From Lachnospiraceae bacterium (lineage in GTDB: Bacteria; Bacillota; Clostridia; Lachnospirales; Lachnospiraceae): 64,000 bases of DNA. The notes under the pieces are model-generated. The model had not been told where the DNA came from. It saw only the letters and a program-made list of their open reading frames with translations, and made no database searches. A program made the translations under genes and the position numbers. Below are positions 10,645-64,000 of the stretch, piece after piece. Every line of letters starts with the position of its first letter. Positions within the stretch are counted from its first letter, which is position 1. The stretch lies in the NCBI GenBank assembly GCA_900199595.1, contig FZRB01000005.1, positions 1-64,000 on the forward strand, read 5' to 3'.

Positions 10645-11601
10645 CTAAACCATCACGTTCAGCACTCCTCTATTTACTTTCATTTCTATATGCTTCACAT
10701 CTCCTATATACTCTCCGTCTGCATGGAGCACCATAGGTCTGTCCGCATCAAATACAAGGGAATCTACATCTTTCAGTAAGAAGCCCTTCTTTCCTTCATG
10801 TTTTCCCATAGTTAACAGAGGCAGCTTAAGAAATGTCTGCCACTTTGGAATACCATTCACTGCACATATGGAGAGCTTTCCGTCCTCCGAAGAAGCATTC
10901 GGACTCATAGGTACTCCACCGCCCTCAGCAAAAAAGTTCATAGCCGCAAGGAAGATAAGCTTTGAAAATCTTTCTTCTTCTATCAGGTCTTTCTTTACTC
11001 CGTCTGCACCGGTATCCGATGTTTTCAGTCTGACCTTTACATCATAGGTTTCCATGCTGAAAAGAGTTGATATAGTAAGAATTATATAGGAAAGACTGCC
11101 AATTCCGAATTTATTAAGCAGCTTCTTAACCTTTGAATCAAGGTTCTTCTTACATACTATCGCATCAAGACCTATTCCGGAACTGATACCAAAATATCTG
11201 CTATTACCGTTTTCTGTAATAACTTCTCCGATATCTATGTTACGTCCGGATACGGATGAAAGCATTATATCGAGAGCTTTATCGGTATCCTTGGGAATTC
11301 CAAGACCTCTGGCGAAATCATTTCCGGACCCTGTAGGTATGATTCCGAACCTTATCCTTGAAAAATCGGTTATCCCGTTCAGAACTTCATTAATCGTTCC
11401 ATCTCCGCCTACAACTATAAGACGTATATCATCGCCGGGCAGCTCAGATATCTTCTTTGCAAGGTCCTTAGCATGTCCCGGTCTTCTGGTAACATATGCC
11501 TTATATTCTATATTCTTTTCATGAAGCAGAAAATGTACTCTGTTCCAGGTTTTTCGGGCCTTGCCGCTTCCACCTGTGTAATTCACAATGAAATAATACA
11601 T
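10645..11601 (-). CDS. Diacylglycerol kinase-family lipid kinase (YegS/DagK type)
   Basis: The 318-residue protein should phosphorylate a lipid hydroxyl such as diacylglycerol with ATP at the inner membrane face. The DAGK catalytic domain holds Val-Val-Gly-Gly-Asp-Gly-Thr-Ile-Asn-Glu-Val (about 64-74), the nucleotide-binding signature. Gly-Ile-Ile-Pro-Thr-Gly-Ser-Gly-Asn-Asp-Phe-Ala-Arg follows (about 90-102). Length is normal for DagK and YegS. The lipid substrate cannot be told from sequence. GGAGAGG lies 7 bases before the ATG. A structured element (11636-11821) separates it from the gene upstream, so it may have its own promoter, though none is obvious. Confidence 0.9.
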   Translation of the reverse strand: MYYFIVNYTGGSGKARKTWNRVHFLLHEKNIEYKAYVTRRPGHAKDLAKKISELPGDDIRLIVVGGDGTINEVLNGITDFSRIRFGIIPTGSGNDFARGLGIPKDTDKALDIMLSSVSGRNIDIGEVITENGNSRYFGISSGIGLDAIVCKKNLDSKVKKLLNKFGIGSLSYIILTISTLFSMETYDVKVRLKTSDTGADGVKKDLIEEERFSKLIFLAAMNFFAEGGGVPMSPNASSEDGKLSICAVNGIPKWQTFLKLPLLTMGKHEGKKGFLLKDVDSLVFDADRPMVLHADGEYIGDVKHIEMKVNRGVLNVMV

Positions 11602-11635: not shown

Positions 11636-11821
11636 TAATGATGCTAACAGATTGTTCCGTTGCTGCGCAACTCTCACAATCCTAAAAACATTCGGAATCC
11701 GCTAATTTGCTTTCTCTGCAAGCAAATTGCTACTTCCTCATGTTTTAGCGGTCAATAAAGTATATAAGCCTTTTTCATGTAAACATGAAAGGCTTATATA
11801 CTTTCTGACCTTGCATCATTA
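11636..11821. repeat. Multi-hairpin element A (repeat or structured RNA family)
   Basis: An outer stem TAATGATGC/GCATCATTA (11636-11644, 11813-11821) encloses three hairpins. The first is GATTG...CAATC (11650-11681) with inner TTGC/GCAA. The second is AAACAT-TC-GGAA...TTCC-TC-ATGTTT (11686-11745) with inner AATTTGC/GCAAATT. The third is a 17-bp perfect stem AAAGTATATAAGCCTTT (11757-11773, 11788-11804) extended by GGTCA/TGACC. The right outer arm overlaps the stop codon of the 117-residue gene. Element B at 60158-60331 repeats the first two hairpins nearly base for base. Confidence 0.8.
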
Positions 11822-12172
11822 CATATAGTAATCTAAATTATACAGCTTTCTGAGATGCATTAAATATTCAGACATATTTTCAAATGCAGGCTTTAATCCT
11901 TCAACTATAAATATGTCCGGAAGATTATTCTCTACATAGAATTCAAGAAGTATATTATTCAAATCTATCAGCGCTGTGGTATTCTCATCTTTTACAAAAT
12001 CATCCAGAACATCGCCAAATTTTTTTACTGTTTCAGCAAATTCAGAATGTCTTACAGCCTTGTTAGCTTTTATCAGCTTGTAATAATAGATAACTCCCTC
12101 TGTATATCCTTTTTTCTCTGAATACTCCTCAACTACTTTCTTAAGATCAAAAAGTTCGGTTCCTGTTGCCAT
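11819..12172 (-). CDS. Hypothetical protein, 117 residues, mostly helical
   Basis: I do not recognise this protein. It is acidic and helical, with no signal or membrane segment. It is rich in Tyr, Glu and Asn and ends in Asn-Leu-Asp-Tyr-Tyr-Met. The ATG at 12172 is preferred because AGGAGG ends 6 bases before it; the longer frame from 12196 uses a TTG that would read through the ribosome site. It follows uraA on the same strand after 32 bases and may be co-transcribed. Its stop codon lies inside the outer stem of element A. Confidence 0.75.
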   Translation of the reverse strand: MATGTELFDLKKVVEEYSEKKGYTEGVIYYYKLIKANKAVRHSEFAETVKKFGDVLDDFVKDENTTALIDLNNILLEFYVENNLPDIFIVEGLKPAFENMSEYLMHLRKLYNLDYYM

Positions 12173-12204
12173 ATAAAACCTCCTAAAATTTGTCAATTAA
12201 TGAG

Positions 12205-28704: not shown

Positions 28705-28887
28705 TTTTTGATATCATAACGTTAATTCGGAAAATCGCTGCTTCGCAGCTTATCATTTTGCTTTCACAAAATGTTTTCCTCATTTACGTTATGGCAGCTT
28801 ACTTCGTAAGTTACCACACAGTTTTTATTAATATTCCTGTGCATGCAAGCATGCTCGGCTTATATATAAAAACTGTTATATCAAAAA
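28705..28887. repeat. Multi-hairpin element C inside the ATPase operon
   Basis: The outer stem TTTTTGATAT/ATATCAAAAA (28705-28714, 28878-28887) encloses CATAACGT/ACGTTATG (28715-28722, 28786-28793). Inside that sit GGAAAA/TTTTCC and the words ATTCGGAA, TCGCT and TTCCTCAT shared with elements A and B. A small AGCTTAC/GTAAGTT hairpin (28796-28812) and a 10-bp stem CAGTTTTTAT/ATAAAAACTG (28819-28828, 28866-28875) follow. It begins 12 bases behind the atpK stop. It is related to A and B but lacks their first hairpin. Confidence 0.65.
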
Positions 28888-28899
28888 GTTACTACACTT

Positions 28900-31390
<2,491 letters not shown>

Positions 31391-59388: not shown

Positions 59389-60057
59389 TTACTTTCCCTT
59401 TTCCAGCATAGGCTTAGCTATCTTCTCATTGAAAAGATCTATAAGCGGGCCCATGAAAAATGCGGTGATTATTGTACCTACACCTGCGATAGTTGGAATC
59501 TTGCCAATCGCATTTCCCGCAACAACAAATAAGATACAGCCTGCTATTACACATACAAGGTCAGTGCAGATCCTTATATATTTGAACTTGCCCCATTTCC
59601 ATTTGTTGGCCATTACTATCGCAACTGCATCATAGGTGGAAACTCCCAGGTCAGCTGTCATATAAAGAGATGAACCAAAACAGATAACAACTATACCGAT
59701 TATCAGACAGATCACCCGTACTATCATGGACGGATCCGGGATCATCTTCTGAAGAAAATCATAGGTAAACTGCGTGATATATCCCAGCAAAAACAGATTA
59801 ATGAAGGTAGCGATACCAATATTATGCCTGTCTGCTATGAGACTGAACGTGAGCAGCACCACATTTACTATTACATACAGTGTTCCGAAATTAATTGGTA
59901 TCAGCGCATCCAGTCCGCTCATCAGAGACTGAAACGGGTCAACCCCCAGCGCTGCAAGTTTAAAAACTCCAACACTTATTGCGCATATAATAACTCCGAA
60001 CAGAGACATGAATATACGCCTCTTTCGTTCTTTTAAAAAATCCAAAACCTTTGACAT
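59389..60057 (-). CDS. YczE/YyaS-family membrane protein
   Basis: The 222-residue protein has five to six membrane segments and starts with a Lys/Arg-rich cytoplasmic stretch. Leu-Gly-Val-Asp-Pro-Phe-Gln-Ser and Ala-Asp-Leu-Gly-Val-Ser-Thr-Tyr-Asp-Ala are the two mirrored motifs of this family, which is related to YitT. The function of family members is largely unknown; some are thought to be transporters or to assist exported products. AGGAGATGGT precedes the ATG. Element B and a perfect hairpin lie upstream. Confidence 0.8.
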   Translation of the reverse strand: MSKVLDFLKERKRRIFMSLFGVIICAISVGVFKLAALGVDPFQSLMSGLDALIPINFGTLYVIVNVVLLTFSLIADRHNIGIATFINLFLLGYITQFTYDFLQKMIPDPSMIVRVICLIIGIVVICFGSSLYMTADLGVSTYDAVAIVMANKWKWGKFKYIRICTDLVCVIAGCILFVVAGNAIGKIPTIAGVGTIITAFFMGPLIDLFNEKIAKPMLEKGK

Positions 60058-60132
60058 ACCATCTCCTGTCTATAAACATCAGAACACAATCTTTTTTGTT
60101 GCATTTCTATTTAGTTTTCAAATCATGATGTG

Positions 60133-60157
60133 GGTGTCAAAAGTACCTTTTGACACC
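60133..60157. other. Perfect 11-bp hairpin beside element B
   Basis: GGTGTCAAAAG (60133-60143), three bases and CTTTTGACACC (60147-60157). No T-run follows on either strand, so it is not a classical terminator. It touches element B directly and may be part of it. Confidence 0.7.
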
Positions 60158-60331
60158 ATATGACATACGGATTGCTCCATTGCTAAAGCAATTCTCGCAA
60201 TCCTAGAAACATTCGGAAACCGCTAATTTTCTACGAAAATTGCTATTTCCTCATGTTTCAGCGTGTCATAAAGTCAACAAGCTTTTCTTGCAAGCAAGAA
60301 CGCTTTTTGACTTTTGGCACTTATGTCATAT
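60158..60331. repeat. Multi-hairpin element B (second full copy)
   Basis: The outer stem ATATGACATA/TATGTCATAT (60158-60167, 60322-60331) encloses the same three-hairpin order as element A. First comes GATTG...CAATC (60170-60202) with inner TTGC/GCAA. Second is AAACAT-TC-GGAA...TTCC-TC-ATGTTT (60207-60258). Third is GTGTC-ATA-AAGTCA paired with TGACTT-TT-GGCAC (60263-60320). Conserved unpaired words such as CCGCTAATTT, TTGCTA and AGCG are shared. The outer and third stems differ in sequence from A but still pair. The right arm touches the stop codon of the large gene. Confidence 0.8.
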
Positions 60332-63300
60332 CATTTTTTAGATATATCTTTATCAGTCTGCTTTCCGACAGGCTGCATTTTTACTTCCGGCTCCTTCTGT
60401 GAATTTACATTATTGGTTCCGAATCGAGTTTTAAATGTATTCAGATTTTCAAATTTTTCAGCTGCATTGTTATGACTTCTTTCAAGAGCCTGTCTCATAT
60501 CTGTTATGAGCTTTGTTGTTCTGAAAGATAATCCTTCTGTACTATTGGTCAAGACAGATATCGCATTTAAAGCTGCCGCTGCTCGGGGATTCTTATCCAC
60601 ATCTATCTTATTCATTCCCTTGCTGTTGATATATTCAAGAGCCGCACCATATATGGCAACATTCAGCCGTCTTATTTCATCTGCAAAATCCTTGGGAGAA
60701 AGATTTTTATTCTTAAGGCCTGCCGCCTCTTTAATGAGGCCGTTCAGCTTCTTATACTGCTTTCCATGCCCGGAGGTGGTTGACAGGTTATCAGCAATCA
60801 TCTTCATGTCTTCAAAATATCTGTCACATTTCTCGGGACTGACGCCATAAATGGTATTTCTTAACTCATTGGAGGCCGCTATCAGACTTTCAGTATTATG
60901 AAGCATAGACTGAAGCTTCTTTGGATTATTCTTTAAAGCATCCAGAGAATACATCTCTTTACAAGCTCCGGCATACTTATGAATCGTCTTGATATCGAAC
61001 TTTTTATCACTTAAAAGAACGGCAGCCATGCATTTTGATACATTTTCCACCATTTCCTCAGCATTTCGTCCCATTTTGAGCCCGGTATGGAGCATAAGAT
61101 AACTCTTAAAGCCTACAGCAGGCTTGCGGCTCTTTTCACCGAGCTTCGCATATCCGGCCTGATTATTTAGTACCGCGTCTGCCTTTGCCGCAGCCTCCGG
61201 TTCATTTTTGAGATATGCACCGATATAATCATTTTTTCTGTTATAAAGTGCTCTGTAAGCTCCTGTCATTTCATCCTTTTCCAGAACTCCCATCTTCTTT
61301 TCGCCAAATATAACAGAATTAAGCTGATTTATCTGATCTTGCCTGAACTTTACTTCCAGCTTTTTTAAAGTATCCAGTTTCTCATTATGCCATGCAACAA
61401 GAGCATCCTGTTTATTCTTCACCTCTTCTTTGTTCATTTTGACATTGACATCTTCATATGCCTTTATAGCCATGTCATAATATTCTTTTTCCTCTGCAGA
61501 AACAACATCAAGTGACTTTTGAACACTTTTATATTTAAGAATTCTAAAGTATTCCTCACTCAACACGCCAATAGCTGAATACATTTTATTATCATCATCC
61601 ATGTCTTTATCCGGCCATGGCTTTGCATCCAGTTTATCAGGTTCATCCTTTGTCAGCATCTCTATCTCTTCAGCCGTATAACCGAGCTTTTTATAGACAT
61701 CTCTGAAGGTCATATCTCTATTATATCCAAGCAATTCTTTGAATTTATTATAAAATGGCTCCTTATGAGATATCTCATTGATCAGATCGTCACTCTGAAC
61801 TGCCATAGCAAAAACCCCTATTTGAGTCGCTGAAGAAAGTGCCTTATCATATTGATACTCTTCACCATCTAAACTGTCATATACAGCCTTAAAATTCTTA
61901 CCAACAAGAGCTAAATTTTTTACATAACCTGCCATCATATGAGAGAATTGTTCTTCCATATCCTTAAATGAATGTATCTTATCGGCCAGTTTCTGAGAAT
62001 AATAAGATGAAAATTGATCCTCATAATCTTTAGAATCCTTTATAATATCCGCACTCTTCAGCTTATGCATATAAGGATTATTTTTTCTTTTCCAATCTCC
62101 TACATGATTTTCTTTTGTCATGAACATCGTTATATACATGTATTCATCTTCAGGAGATACCTGAGCGCTAAATGATTCCGGGATCTTTGTATTAATATCC
62201 GCAATACCTACACCTCTCTCTAAGGCTTCATTTATTTTAGCATCTTTCTGCTCTTTACTTAGCTTCTTAAGAGGTTTTACCTTATTGTATGTCACCGCCA
62301 GACTGTTTATCTGCCATTCTATTGAAGATTTTGAAGTTTTATCAATAGTATTTCCATCAAGATCTGCAGGATATCTCTTATCAAAATCGTTGAAGGCATC
62401 ATTTAAAGCATTCATATATGTTTCCATATCTGACGCCACTTCACCGGCTACAGCAAGTCTCTCTCTATTGCTGGTTTTCCCACGTTTAAAGTATGTTTCG
62501 CCGGCTCTTTGAAAATCAGAAAGCTTTGTCCTTAAGCCCTCCATATTGAATCTGTCAGTTTTACTTTTACTTAAGTATGTCGACAATTCCTTCAGAGCAG
62601 TGCACATAGCCTGATATGGTTCAGAACCTTCAGCGGTTTTATTCTTAAAATTATTATCCGGACTCTTCTGTGTTTCTGCAAGACGTGTCTGATAATTTCC
62701 GACCTTTTCAGTAAGTTTATCTAACAGCCCATTATATATCTCAATGCCTTCGGCCATCTCTTCAAGATCTGCCCTCTTGGGTACAGCGATCATTTCTTTC
62801 TTAGATATGAATGCATTATCCTTACCAATCTTCGCAACTTTTATGGTTATCTCGCTGTCACCCTTTATAGCCTTCTTAAGGATCTCAGCCTTAAGCAGAA
62901 ATCTCTTTTCAGTACTGTCCGTAACATCCGCATATTTCTCTCCCCAGAGCTCTGTAGGTGATTTATCATCCACACGAAACAGATCGATTGGATCTAACTC
63001 CAGGTCTTCGGCATAATTATACATATTTTCATCGAATATATAATCAAAGGGTTCTCTTATCAGATGCTTATTAAGCCTCACAAAATCCTTTACCGATGCT
63101 GCATCATCTCCGGAAGATTGAGTCAACGGAATCAGCATCTCATTTGATCTGGATATAGAACGAAAGAAAGCTTTTGCAGCTGAAAGTCCTACTATCTCCG
63201 TTTTTTTGTTACCGAGTTGCGGCTGAATATATCTGACGTTTATATCATTTATGAACCCGTTTGTATCTTTTCCGGTCAAATAATCTATGACCTTATCCTG

Positions 63301-64000
63301 TTCTATCTCAAAATTCCCAAATTCAATCTGCGGCCTGATTGAATACTTGATATCATTTATGTTATTATTTCTTTTTATATCAAACTTGGATATATCTCCC
63401 AGCTTCTTACCTTTTATCTCTTGAAACTGAGTTCTGAAAAGCATATCATCCAGTGCGCGACTATTAATGGTCTTTTTAATCGTTCCAATATCACCGGACT
63501 GCCATTCATCATAATACATTGCATTTCCGACAGCACTTATCATATTATCAAAAACCTTCTGGTATCCCACCCAGAAATTCGCCATCTTCTTTGCTTCCAG
63601 TTCACCACCTACATATTTCTGGATGTACTCTGAACTTTTGGTTTCCTCATAAACCTTATTATCAGAACCTGTTCCTTTAGGGATGGTATAATTACCCATT
63701 CTGACAAAGAATTCCTGATTAAAATCAATCATGAGATTACCAACTATACTCAGCTCGTCATAGTAATCCTTTGCCATCTCCCTGTCAAAATAATCAATAT
63801 CCGGAATAGTATATTCCTGCATTTTGGCAGTACTTCTCTTCATTATATCAGCCCAGTTCTTTGCAGCTTTACTATACTTATCGGCTTTTACATCTTTATT
63901 TATTTCAGATTCAGGATTCATTGGATTATCCTGACAAAACTTTACAAAATCTTCTACATACTTCTGATTATTCTCTCCGCGAAGTACTCCTATAGCTGCC
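60331..64000 (-). CDS. Very large protein of unknown function, start beyond the window
   Basis: The frame is open from the right edge to TGA at 60331, over 1,220 codons. The first ATG inside the window (63921) has no good ribosome site and coding continues upstream of it, so the true start lies outside. The visible part is hydrophilic, mostly helical, and rich in Lys, Glu, Asp, Asn and Tyr. It has no signal, no membrane helix, no coiled-coil of great length and no catalytic motif I know. The C-terminus is disordered and lysine-rich. I do not recognise the family. Codon use looks like that of its neighbours. Confidence 0.8.
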   Translation of the reverse strand, partial: AAIGVLRGENNQKYVEDFVKFCQDNPMNPESEINKDVKADKYSKAAKNWADIMKRSTAKMQEYTIPDIDYFDREMAKDYYDELSIVGNLMIDFNQEFFVRMGNYTIPKGTGSDNKVYEETKSSEYIQKYVGGELEAKKMANFWVGYQKVFDNMISAVGNAMYYDEWQSGDIGTIKKTINSRALDDMLFRTQFQEIKGKKLGDISKFDIKRNNNINDIKYSIRPQIEFGNFEIEQDKVIDYLTGKDTNGFINDINVRYIQPQLGNKKTEIVGLSAAKAFFRSISRSNEMLIPLTQSSGDDAASVKDFVRLNKHLIREPFDYIFDENMYNYAEDLELDPIDLFRVDDKSPTELWGEKYADVTDSTEKRFLLKAEILKKAIKGDSEITIKVAKIGKDNAFISKKEMIAVPKRADLEEMAEGIEIYNGLLDKLTEKVGNYQTRLAETQKSPDNNFKNKTAEGSEPYQAMCTALKELSTYLSKSKTDRFNMEGLRTKLSDFQRAGETYFKRGKTSNRERLAVAGEVASDMETYMNALNDAFNDFDKRYPADLDGNTIDKTSKSSIEWQINSLAVTYNKVKPLKKLSKEQKDAKINEALERGVGIADINTKIPESFSAQVSPEDEYMYITMFMTKENHVGDWKRKNNPYMHKLKSADIIKDSKDYEDQFSSYYSQKLADKIHSFKDMEEQFSHMMAGYVKNLALVGKNFKAVYDSLDGEEYQYDKALSSATQIGVFAMAVQSDDLINEISHKEPFYNKFKELLGYNRDMTFRDVYKKLGYTAEEIEMLTKDEPDKLDAKPWPDKDMDDDNKMYSAIGVLSEEYFRILKYKSVQKSLDVVSAEEKEYYDMAIKAYEDVNVKMNKEEVKNKQDALVAWHNEKLDTLKKLEVKFRQDQINQLNSVIFGEKKMGVLEKDEMTGAYRALYNRKNDYIGAYLKNEPEAAAKADAVLNNQAGYAKLGEKSRKPAVGFKSYLMLHTGLKMGRNAEEMVENVSKCMAAVLLSDKKFDIKTIHKYAGACKEMYSLDALKNNPKKLQSMLHNTESLIAASNELRNTIYGVSPEKCDRYFEDMKMIADNLSTTSGHGKQYKKLNGLIKEAAGLKNKNLSPKDFADEIRRLNVAIYGAALEYINSKGMNKIDVDKNPRAAAALNAISVLTNSTEGLSFRTTKLITDMRQALERSHNNAAEKFENLNTFKTRFGTNNVNSQKEPEVKMQPVGKQTDKDISKK

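Follow-up and report, generated by a model that had tools for sequence, protein, structure and literature searches.

The window, that is, the whole stretch of 64,000 nucleotides that was analysed, contains two multi-hairpin elements, A and B, which are near-certain members of the Rfam family RF01699 (Clostridiales-1). Besides this membership, our comparisons established that the B type of the family is mobile, that copies are strand-biased, that stop codons are paired within the closing stem and that copies recur behind the genes encoding c, K and L7/L12. The reading we favour, to which we give an even chance, is that RF01699 is a family of mobile palindromes and that those copies which have been retained would work at the mRNA level, lowering expression of the next gene.

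The preliminary description of this DNA had matched the elements to no named family; the Rfam search gave RF01699 for both. With 128.4 bits for A and 116.5 bits for B, the scores lie far above the curated gathering cut-off of 48 bits, and both elements match the whole model (positions 1-166) on the minus strand, with the same fold and loops. RF01699 stems from a 2010 screen by Weinberg et al., where its table row reads y for RNA and n for both cis-regulatory and switch (PMC2864571). Rfam gives it the type label Gene; sRNA. A search of open-licence papers under the family name or accession returned no later study and no assigned function. Relative to the portion of PMC2864571 that covers RF01699, what is added here is a unit longer than the model, direct repeats, a stop codon inside P1 and recurrence at proteolipid and L7/L12 genes.

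In addition to the Rfam model we used a covariance model, R1, made in this analysis from 19 sequences including A and B. The preliminary description had proposed such a search for further copies in relatives, and these were found. In total, the genome from which the window comes holds 25 RF01699 copies, every one above the Rfam cut-off. A search of 61 genomes, the own one and its relatives, gave a match in 30 and one above the cut-off in 28. Across the order, 57 of 295 genomes gave a match, 42 of them above the cut-off, and 26 of 130 genera were represented. A pattern scan of named genomes found at least 110 stretches; among the matches listed were Butyrivibrio, Blautia, Hominisplanchenecus and many Lachnospiraceae bins.

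The features at the locus of element A are:

11636..11821, minus strand: element A, Clostridiales-1 RNA (RF01699); Rfam 128.4 bits, R1 148.9 bits
11813-11821 and 11636-11644, minus strand: the two arms of P1 of A, with P2 at 11750-11810, P3 at 11685-11746 and P4 at 11649-11682; minimum-energy fold
11819..12196, minus strand: gene upstream of A, 125 aa, no Pfam match; ORF list, Pfam and sequence
10645..11601, minus strand: gene downstream of A, diacylglycerol kinase catalytic domain/YegS-like lipid kinase; PF00781, PF19279

The position given for A in the preliminary description agrees with the Rfam match at 11639-11818 and the R1 match at 11636-11821, both on the minus strand. The TAA stop codon of the upstream gene (11819-11821) forms the first three bases of P1. 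A folds far better than its shuffles on the minus strand (z -10.6) and about equally so on the plus strand (z -11.0). When 30 loci with the downstream lipid-kinase gene were searched, own included, only the own locus and that of genome G026 had an R1 match; by inspection, the latter is a short form consisting of P2 only, at the same stop codon as A. By inspection, thirteen relatives keep the end of the upstream gene, and 12 of them have no match. A is not widely kept among relatives.

The features at the locus of element B are:

60158..60331, minus strand: element B, Clostridiales-1 RNA (RF01699), B type (TGACATA...TATGTCA); Rfam 116.5 bits, R1 193.3 bits, fold
60127..60329, minus strand: mobile unit of B, made up of the RNA body and a 3′ terminal hairpin (60133-60157), with the end GACACCCACATC; 3′ sequence common to four long-form copies, 202 bp unit with direct repeat (row L283)
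60330..60334, minus strand: 5′ copy of the direct repeat ATGAT, which holds the TGA stop codon (60331-60333) of the upstream gene; row L283, sequence
60122..60126, minus strand: 3′ copy of the direct repeat ATGAT; row L283, sequence
60331..63921, minus strand: gene upstream of B, 1196 aa, no Pfam match; ORF list, Pfam
59389..60057, minus strand: gene downstream of B, 222 aa, DUF6198; ORF list, Pfam

B likewise lies where it had been placed, with an Rfam match at 60161-60328 and an R1 match at 60158-60331, both on the minus strand, which folds far better than shuffles (z -8.8). Its boundaries hold for the RNA body only, as the mobile unit reaches further, to 60127. Two more observations of the preliminary description were borne out by the ORF list and the sequence: A overlaps and B touches the stop codon of a leftward gene (the TAA of A within the outer stem, the TGA of B at 60331-60333), and each is followed by a further leftward gene. 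The strand needs correction, since the Rfam strand of the family is the minus strand, which runs with the flanking genes.

The length of the mobile unit was set from the four long-form copies, which carry extra hairpins inside P4, because they share sequence beyond the Rfam 3′ end. B-type units are thus about 202 bp long, or 310 bp in the long form, end in GACACCCACATC and are longer than the Rfam model. Their candidate terminal inverted repeats are imperfect (TGACATAAGTGTCAAAAG versus GATGTGGGTGTCAAAAG). Direct repeats of at least 5 bp (5-7 bp) flank 15 of the 20 B-type units for which both ends were available, compared to a mean of 1.97 and a maximum of 6 of 20 when right flanks were swapped in 500 rounds, and these repeats are AT-rich. 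Target-site duplication, a mark of MITEs, was therefore found for the B type only. Among the subset of copies compared, 31 pairs within genomes and 13 pairs between genomes are at least 95% identical. One element of 168 bp is identical in two species (genomes G000 and G033) while its flanks differ, and the lipid-kinase proteins of these two are 73% identical. The B-type subfamily very probably spreads as mobile DNA, and B itself is a recent insertion, judging by its direct repeat. No empty site for B was found; the relatives compared do not have its surroundings.

We also searched for a partner that could mobilise these units. In the own genome there are 34 places with the 3′ end motif, and by inspection with this motif only, no transposase gene was framed by two of them. 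A Y1/RAYT transposase was rejected as mobiliser, as none of 28 loci around PF01797 (Y1/RAYT transposase) genes contained an R1 match; in the own genome, which has 25 copies, the search for such genes gave three partial matches and a single full-length one, the size of an IS200. Retrotransposition with 5′ truncation was discarded as well: solo 3′ ends exist, but several copies have a 5′ end without the 3′ hairpin. Mobile elements as carriers were likewise set aside, with no match in plasmids and only two phage sequences matched among 50,697 records. These two, MT835932.1 and MT839604.1, are unannotated faecal phage records; the matching stretch covers 76-79% of B at about 73% identity. Solo copies of the 3′ hairpin GATGTGGGTGTCAAAAGTACCTTTTGACACC were seen in the own genome (L414-L443), with variable ends and mostly AT before them; this hairpin carries TTGACA, so that insertions might supply a −35 box. 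The long form has a multi-hairpin insert in the inner part of P4 and occurs both in mobile B-type copies (L047-L050; C2, C22 and C12 of the own genome) and behind V-type K genes of other species (L358-L360).

The family fold, as seen in A and B, consists of a closing stem P1 and three hairpins, P2 to P4, four stems in about 170 nt. P2 carries conserved words at its tip, and in P3 and P4 they sit in internal loops; GCTTGC, for instance, is present in 153 of 226 copies. A and B share their words in a common order while their stems differ and still pair, just as the preliminary description had reported. An alignment of 23 matches from loci of F-type c and V-type K has 91.2% of its cells paired and two-sided changes at 60 of 64 pairs. 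Its covariation score of 0.598 compares with 0.159 after shuffling and no more than 0.083 with slid structures; the alignment was fitted to the model, and its sequences are related to one another. In the preliminary description, covarying stems were taken to point to a selected RNA structure. The covariation is indeed strong; as proof of selection on RNA it does not suffice, because G-U pairs are equally rare on both strands. Across the whole set their share of the predicted pairs is 2.4% for the RNA strand and 2.2% for its complement, and such a low share shows that the elements are near-perfect palindromes. In the 21 copies at c, K and rplL genes the shares are 3.0% and 1.3%, respectively, based on a few dozen pairs. 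This lean in retained copies fits use as RNA and is weak evidence, because RNase P, used as a control, has no strand lean either (10.3% and 10.5%). A strand test by single mismatches (G-T versus A-C, 40 to 32) was dropped, as the RNase P control (29 to 31) indicated that it had no power.

For the genomic position of the copies, 286 aligned matches were reduced to 226 by removing opposite-strand echoes, short pieces and duplicates; 25 of these come from the own genome, 85 from other genomes and 116 from named records. Genes around the copies were called with our own codon-score script, not with a published gene finder. In this first set, 117 copies lie between two sense genes versus 30 between two antisense genes. 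Upstream genes of the same sense end between −12 and +5 nt of the first base of the model in 63 of 141 cases; for antisense genes at the opposite side this is so in 4 of 42. The second set consists of 60 copies in 23 genomes from other genera, which were taken as listed apart from some skips, and none of its upstream flanks occurs in the first set. Its orientation was 38 versus 7, with stop adjacency in 14 of 40 versus 1 of 9. P values for such counts overstate, because copies within a genome are related. When the first set was split by type, orientation was 18 versus 7 for the B type (47 copies, 4 stop-adjacent), 25 versus 7 for the TGATAC type (46 copies, 12 stop-adjacent), 3 versus 5 for A-like copies (11 copies, 3 stop-adjacent) and 71 versus 11 for the remaining types (122 copies, 44 stop-adjacent). 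By these counts, A-like copies show no orientation bias and the B type is weakly biased. The own genome gave 11 versus 3, with 3 of 25 copies stop-adjacent.

Next to lying at the stop codon, many copies pair with it. Among the 59 stop-adjacent copies that are not of the B type, P1 could be traced in 55; the stop codon is wholly inside P1 in 35 and not wholly so in 20. When 3′ arms were swapped between copies in 200 rounds, the stop codon was inside P1 in 17.4 copies on average and in 24 at most. Similarly, 102 coding bases are paired in P1, compared to a mean of 28 with swapped 3′ arms. None of the 4 stop-adjacent B-type copies has its stop codon inside P1. The 5′ arms behind V-type K genes read TTGAAGTAATAC (L367), TTGAAATAAT (L356), TTGAAATAGTAC (L361) and ATTGAAATAGCA (L373), and the 3′ arm of each copy is the complement of its 5′ arm, so that TAA and TAG stops alternate in step with the bases they pair with. 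In L371 pairing also runs through the stop codon. P1 breaks inside the stop codon in L357 and L369 and just behind it in L370, while an insert led the model to put the 3′ arm in the wrong place in L359 and L360.

We then looked at the genes behind which copies are found. The c subunit of ATP synthase, the K subunit of V-ATPase and ribosomal protein L7/L12 are classic cases of uneven stoichiometry. R1 matches were found behind F-type c genes at 8 of 30 loci, behind V-type K genes at 14 of 30 and behind rplL, encoding L7/L12, at 8 of 30 (two of these weak); 22, 16 and 22 loci, respectively, gave no match. These loci are the best 30 of 59, 35 and 44 genomes with the respective gene, and the genes were chosen because a copy had already been seen there. 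Among 60 control loci (30 lipid kinase and 30 RNase P), 2 had an R1 match, both at the A site. Some junctions without a match have other hairpins (L334, L339 and L341); in L339 and L341, behind F-type c genes, this is another multi-hairpin structure, and a second family may play the same part there. In E. coli, an attenuator separates rplL and rpoB. Most of the displayed rplL loci without a match have, by inspection, a hairpin followed by T-rich sequence. At the rplL-rpoB junctions L504, L508, L513, L519 and L520, the T-rich 3′ side of P2 pairs into P2, as if a terminator were built in.

Pfam was run on example pairs picked by eye, not on all 63 stop-adjacent copies. Among these pairs were ATP synthase c before b, V-type K before E, L7/L12 before RpoB, a sugar-binding protein before an ABC ATPase and an oligopeptide-binding protein before its permease. 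Furthermore, we found pyruvate formate-lyase before a radical-SAM protein, SufB before a second SufBD protein, phosphate acetyl/butyryl transferase before a kinase, 3-hydroxyacyl-CoA dehydrogenase before acyl-CoA dehydrogenase, glutamine amidotransferase before a phosphoribosyltransferase, YicC before guanylate kinase and two pairs of purine and polyamine synthesis enzymes. One pair had no match at either gene. Many of the 63 stop-adjacent genes show no evident need for uneven amounts.

A third element, absent from the preliminary description, lies at such a junction within the window:

28709..28887, minus strand: third, diverged Clostridiales-1-like element with rearranged hairpins; RF01699 25.3 bits, E 0.0013 (351-base search)
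28900..29373, minus strand: V-type ATP synthase proteolipid subunit (K), upstream of the third element; PF00137
28077..28682, minus strand: V-type ATP synthase subunit E, downstream of the third element; PF01991

R1 gave 22.3 bits at 28755-28887 (E 2.3e-4). With 25.3 bits the element falls below the RF01699 cut-off of 48 bits, and we call it a diverged relative only. In its predicted fold the stop codon lies outside any outer stem. By inspection, the same variant is present at this K-E junction in L376 and L385. By position it is the most likely of the three elements of the window to be functional; A and B are species-specific or recent, and a selected effect is less likely for them than for this element behind V-type K.

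The preliminary description had offered a structured RNA, a 3′-UTR element or a mobile palindromic repeat as options. More than one of them holds: B is mobile, and the copies found after atpE, V-type K and rplL resemble intercistronic mRNA elements that have been retained. In the mechanism that we propose, A and B are dispersed copies of a short palindromic family, part of which spreads as DNA, and the strand transcribed with the host operon folds into the closing stem P1 and three hairpins. Copies landing in sense at the 3′ end of genes whose product must be in excess would be kept and would then change together with the stop codon and the last codons, often inside P1. Long-kept copies would be those behind products in excess over the next gene, namely ATP synthase c, V-ATPase K, L7/L12 and the binding proteins of ABC importers. 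There the mRNA structure might protect the upstream message and lower the output of the downstream gene, and the terminating ribosome would have to open P1, a mode akin to that of REP elements near stop codons and of clostridial stem-loops that skew operon output. For such a cis effect of retained copies we consider the chances evenly balanced. A more specific version, which we put forward tentatively and hold to be somewhat less probable, is a translation-coupled ratio valve: P1 would capture the stop codon and the last codons, the terminating ribosome would decide on closure of the RNA and thereby on downstream output, and a mobile element would have been recruited repeatedly at c, K and L7/L12 genes.

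The copies could also be purely selfish, MITE-like DNA, with hairpins that serve transposition, palindromes kept by correction at the DNA level and a position at stop codons that reflects AT-rich targets and tolerance. The AT-rich direct repeats, the near-identical dispersed copies, the few G-U pairs, equal on both strands, and the stop codon of B, which belongs to the target repeat, are all consistent with this. However, neither palindromic ends nor AT content explain the orientation bias (117 to 30 and 38 to 7) or the fact that copies in sense adjoin stop codons mainly with their 5′ end (63 of 141 versus 4 of 42), and diverged copies persist behind the same genes. We therefore regard purely selfish DNA as rather unlikely, although a strand-biased insertion mechanism, for example one tied to replication, may be the source of the orientation bias. 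An intrinsic terminator or attenuator that ends transcription of the upstream gene is suggested by the T-rich 3′ side of P2 at rplL and by the hairpin with T-rich sequence at most displayed rplL loci without a match (inspection). As a general explanation it was rejected, since T-rich sequence directly behind the element (11 of 213 copies) is in no excess over that further downstream (13 of 213); copies at rplL may differ, and overall we judge this role improbable. Slightly less probable still is a trans-acting small RNA made from many loci, for which the Rfam label and the strong covarying structure speak, whereas the stems differ almost wholly between copies and position is tied to the neighbouring genes. 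That the structure starts at the stop codon would suit a read-through or recoding element, yet TAA, TAG and TGA all occur, and by reading, the B type has its next in-frame stop after about 20 codons; to this role we assign hardly any probability.

If retained copies do act in the mRNA, gut and rumen bacteria would be tuning protein ratios within operons by means of elements delivered by transposition. RF01699, catalogued as a small RNA, would then be a cis element that makes simple, testable predictions for the c, K and L7/L12 genes, and would offer a clear case of a selfish repeat turned into a regulator that has to pair with coding sequence.

Correia/NEMIS and ERIC MITEs are short, non-coding elements with inverted ends, a target duplication and a transcribed palindrome. 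RF01699 resembles them in these features, with the duplication seen in its B type and ends that may count as inverted repeats. It differs from them in its imperfect ends, direct repeats of 5-7 bp, the lack of an autonomous partner in our search and strongly strand-biased copies. Our literature search found nothing on MITEs in Lachnospiraceae, nor on REP elements with malE. REPs are single short hairpins with a GTAG-type motif; RF01699, in contrast, comprises three hairpins and a closing stem in about 170 bp, shows target duplications and, by the 28 loci searched, has no RAYT-type transposase beside its copies. By the tests made the family is not a REP, with no R1 match at the 28 Y1 loci and a four-stem fold. 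As far as covered by the source, REP/BIME elements resemble RF01699 in being dispersed palindromes that often lie near stop codons of upstream genes, and an effect on translation is reported for REPs that lie no more than 15 nt from a stop codon (PMC12306157).

Stem-loops behind abundant genes are described to skew clostridial operons in the sections consulted of PMC4423207 and PMC9045158, and PMC8219983 names ATP synthases among the operons with such stem-loops. The stem-loops of selective RNA processing and stabilization (SRPS) and the internal terminators of cellulolytic clostridia are like RF01699 in that a stable structure lies behind an abundant operon gene, with ATP synthases and ABC importers named in these sources (PMC4423207, PMC8219983, PMC9045158). 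The same position was seen here at c, K and L7/L12 genes, presumably the more abundant ones of their operons. As described there, SRPS stem-loops are single structures that do not share a family, whereas RF01699 is one conserved, partly mobile family.
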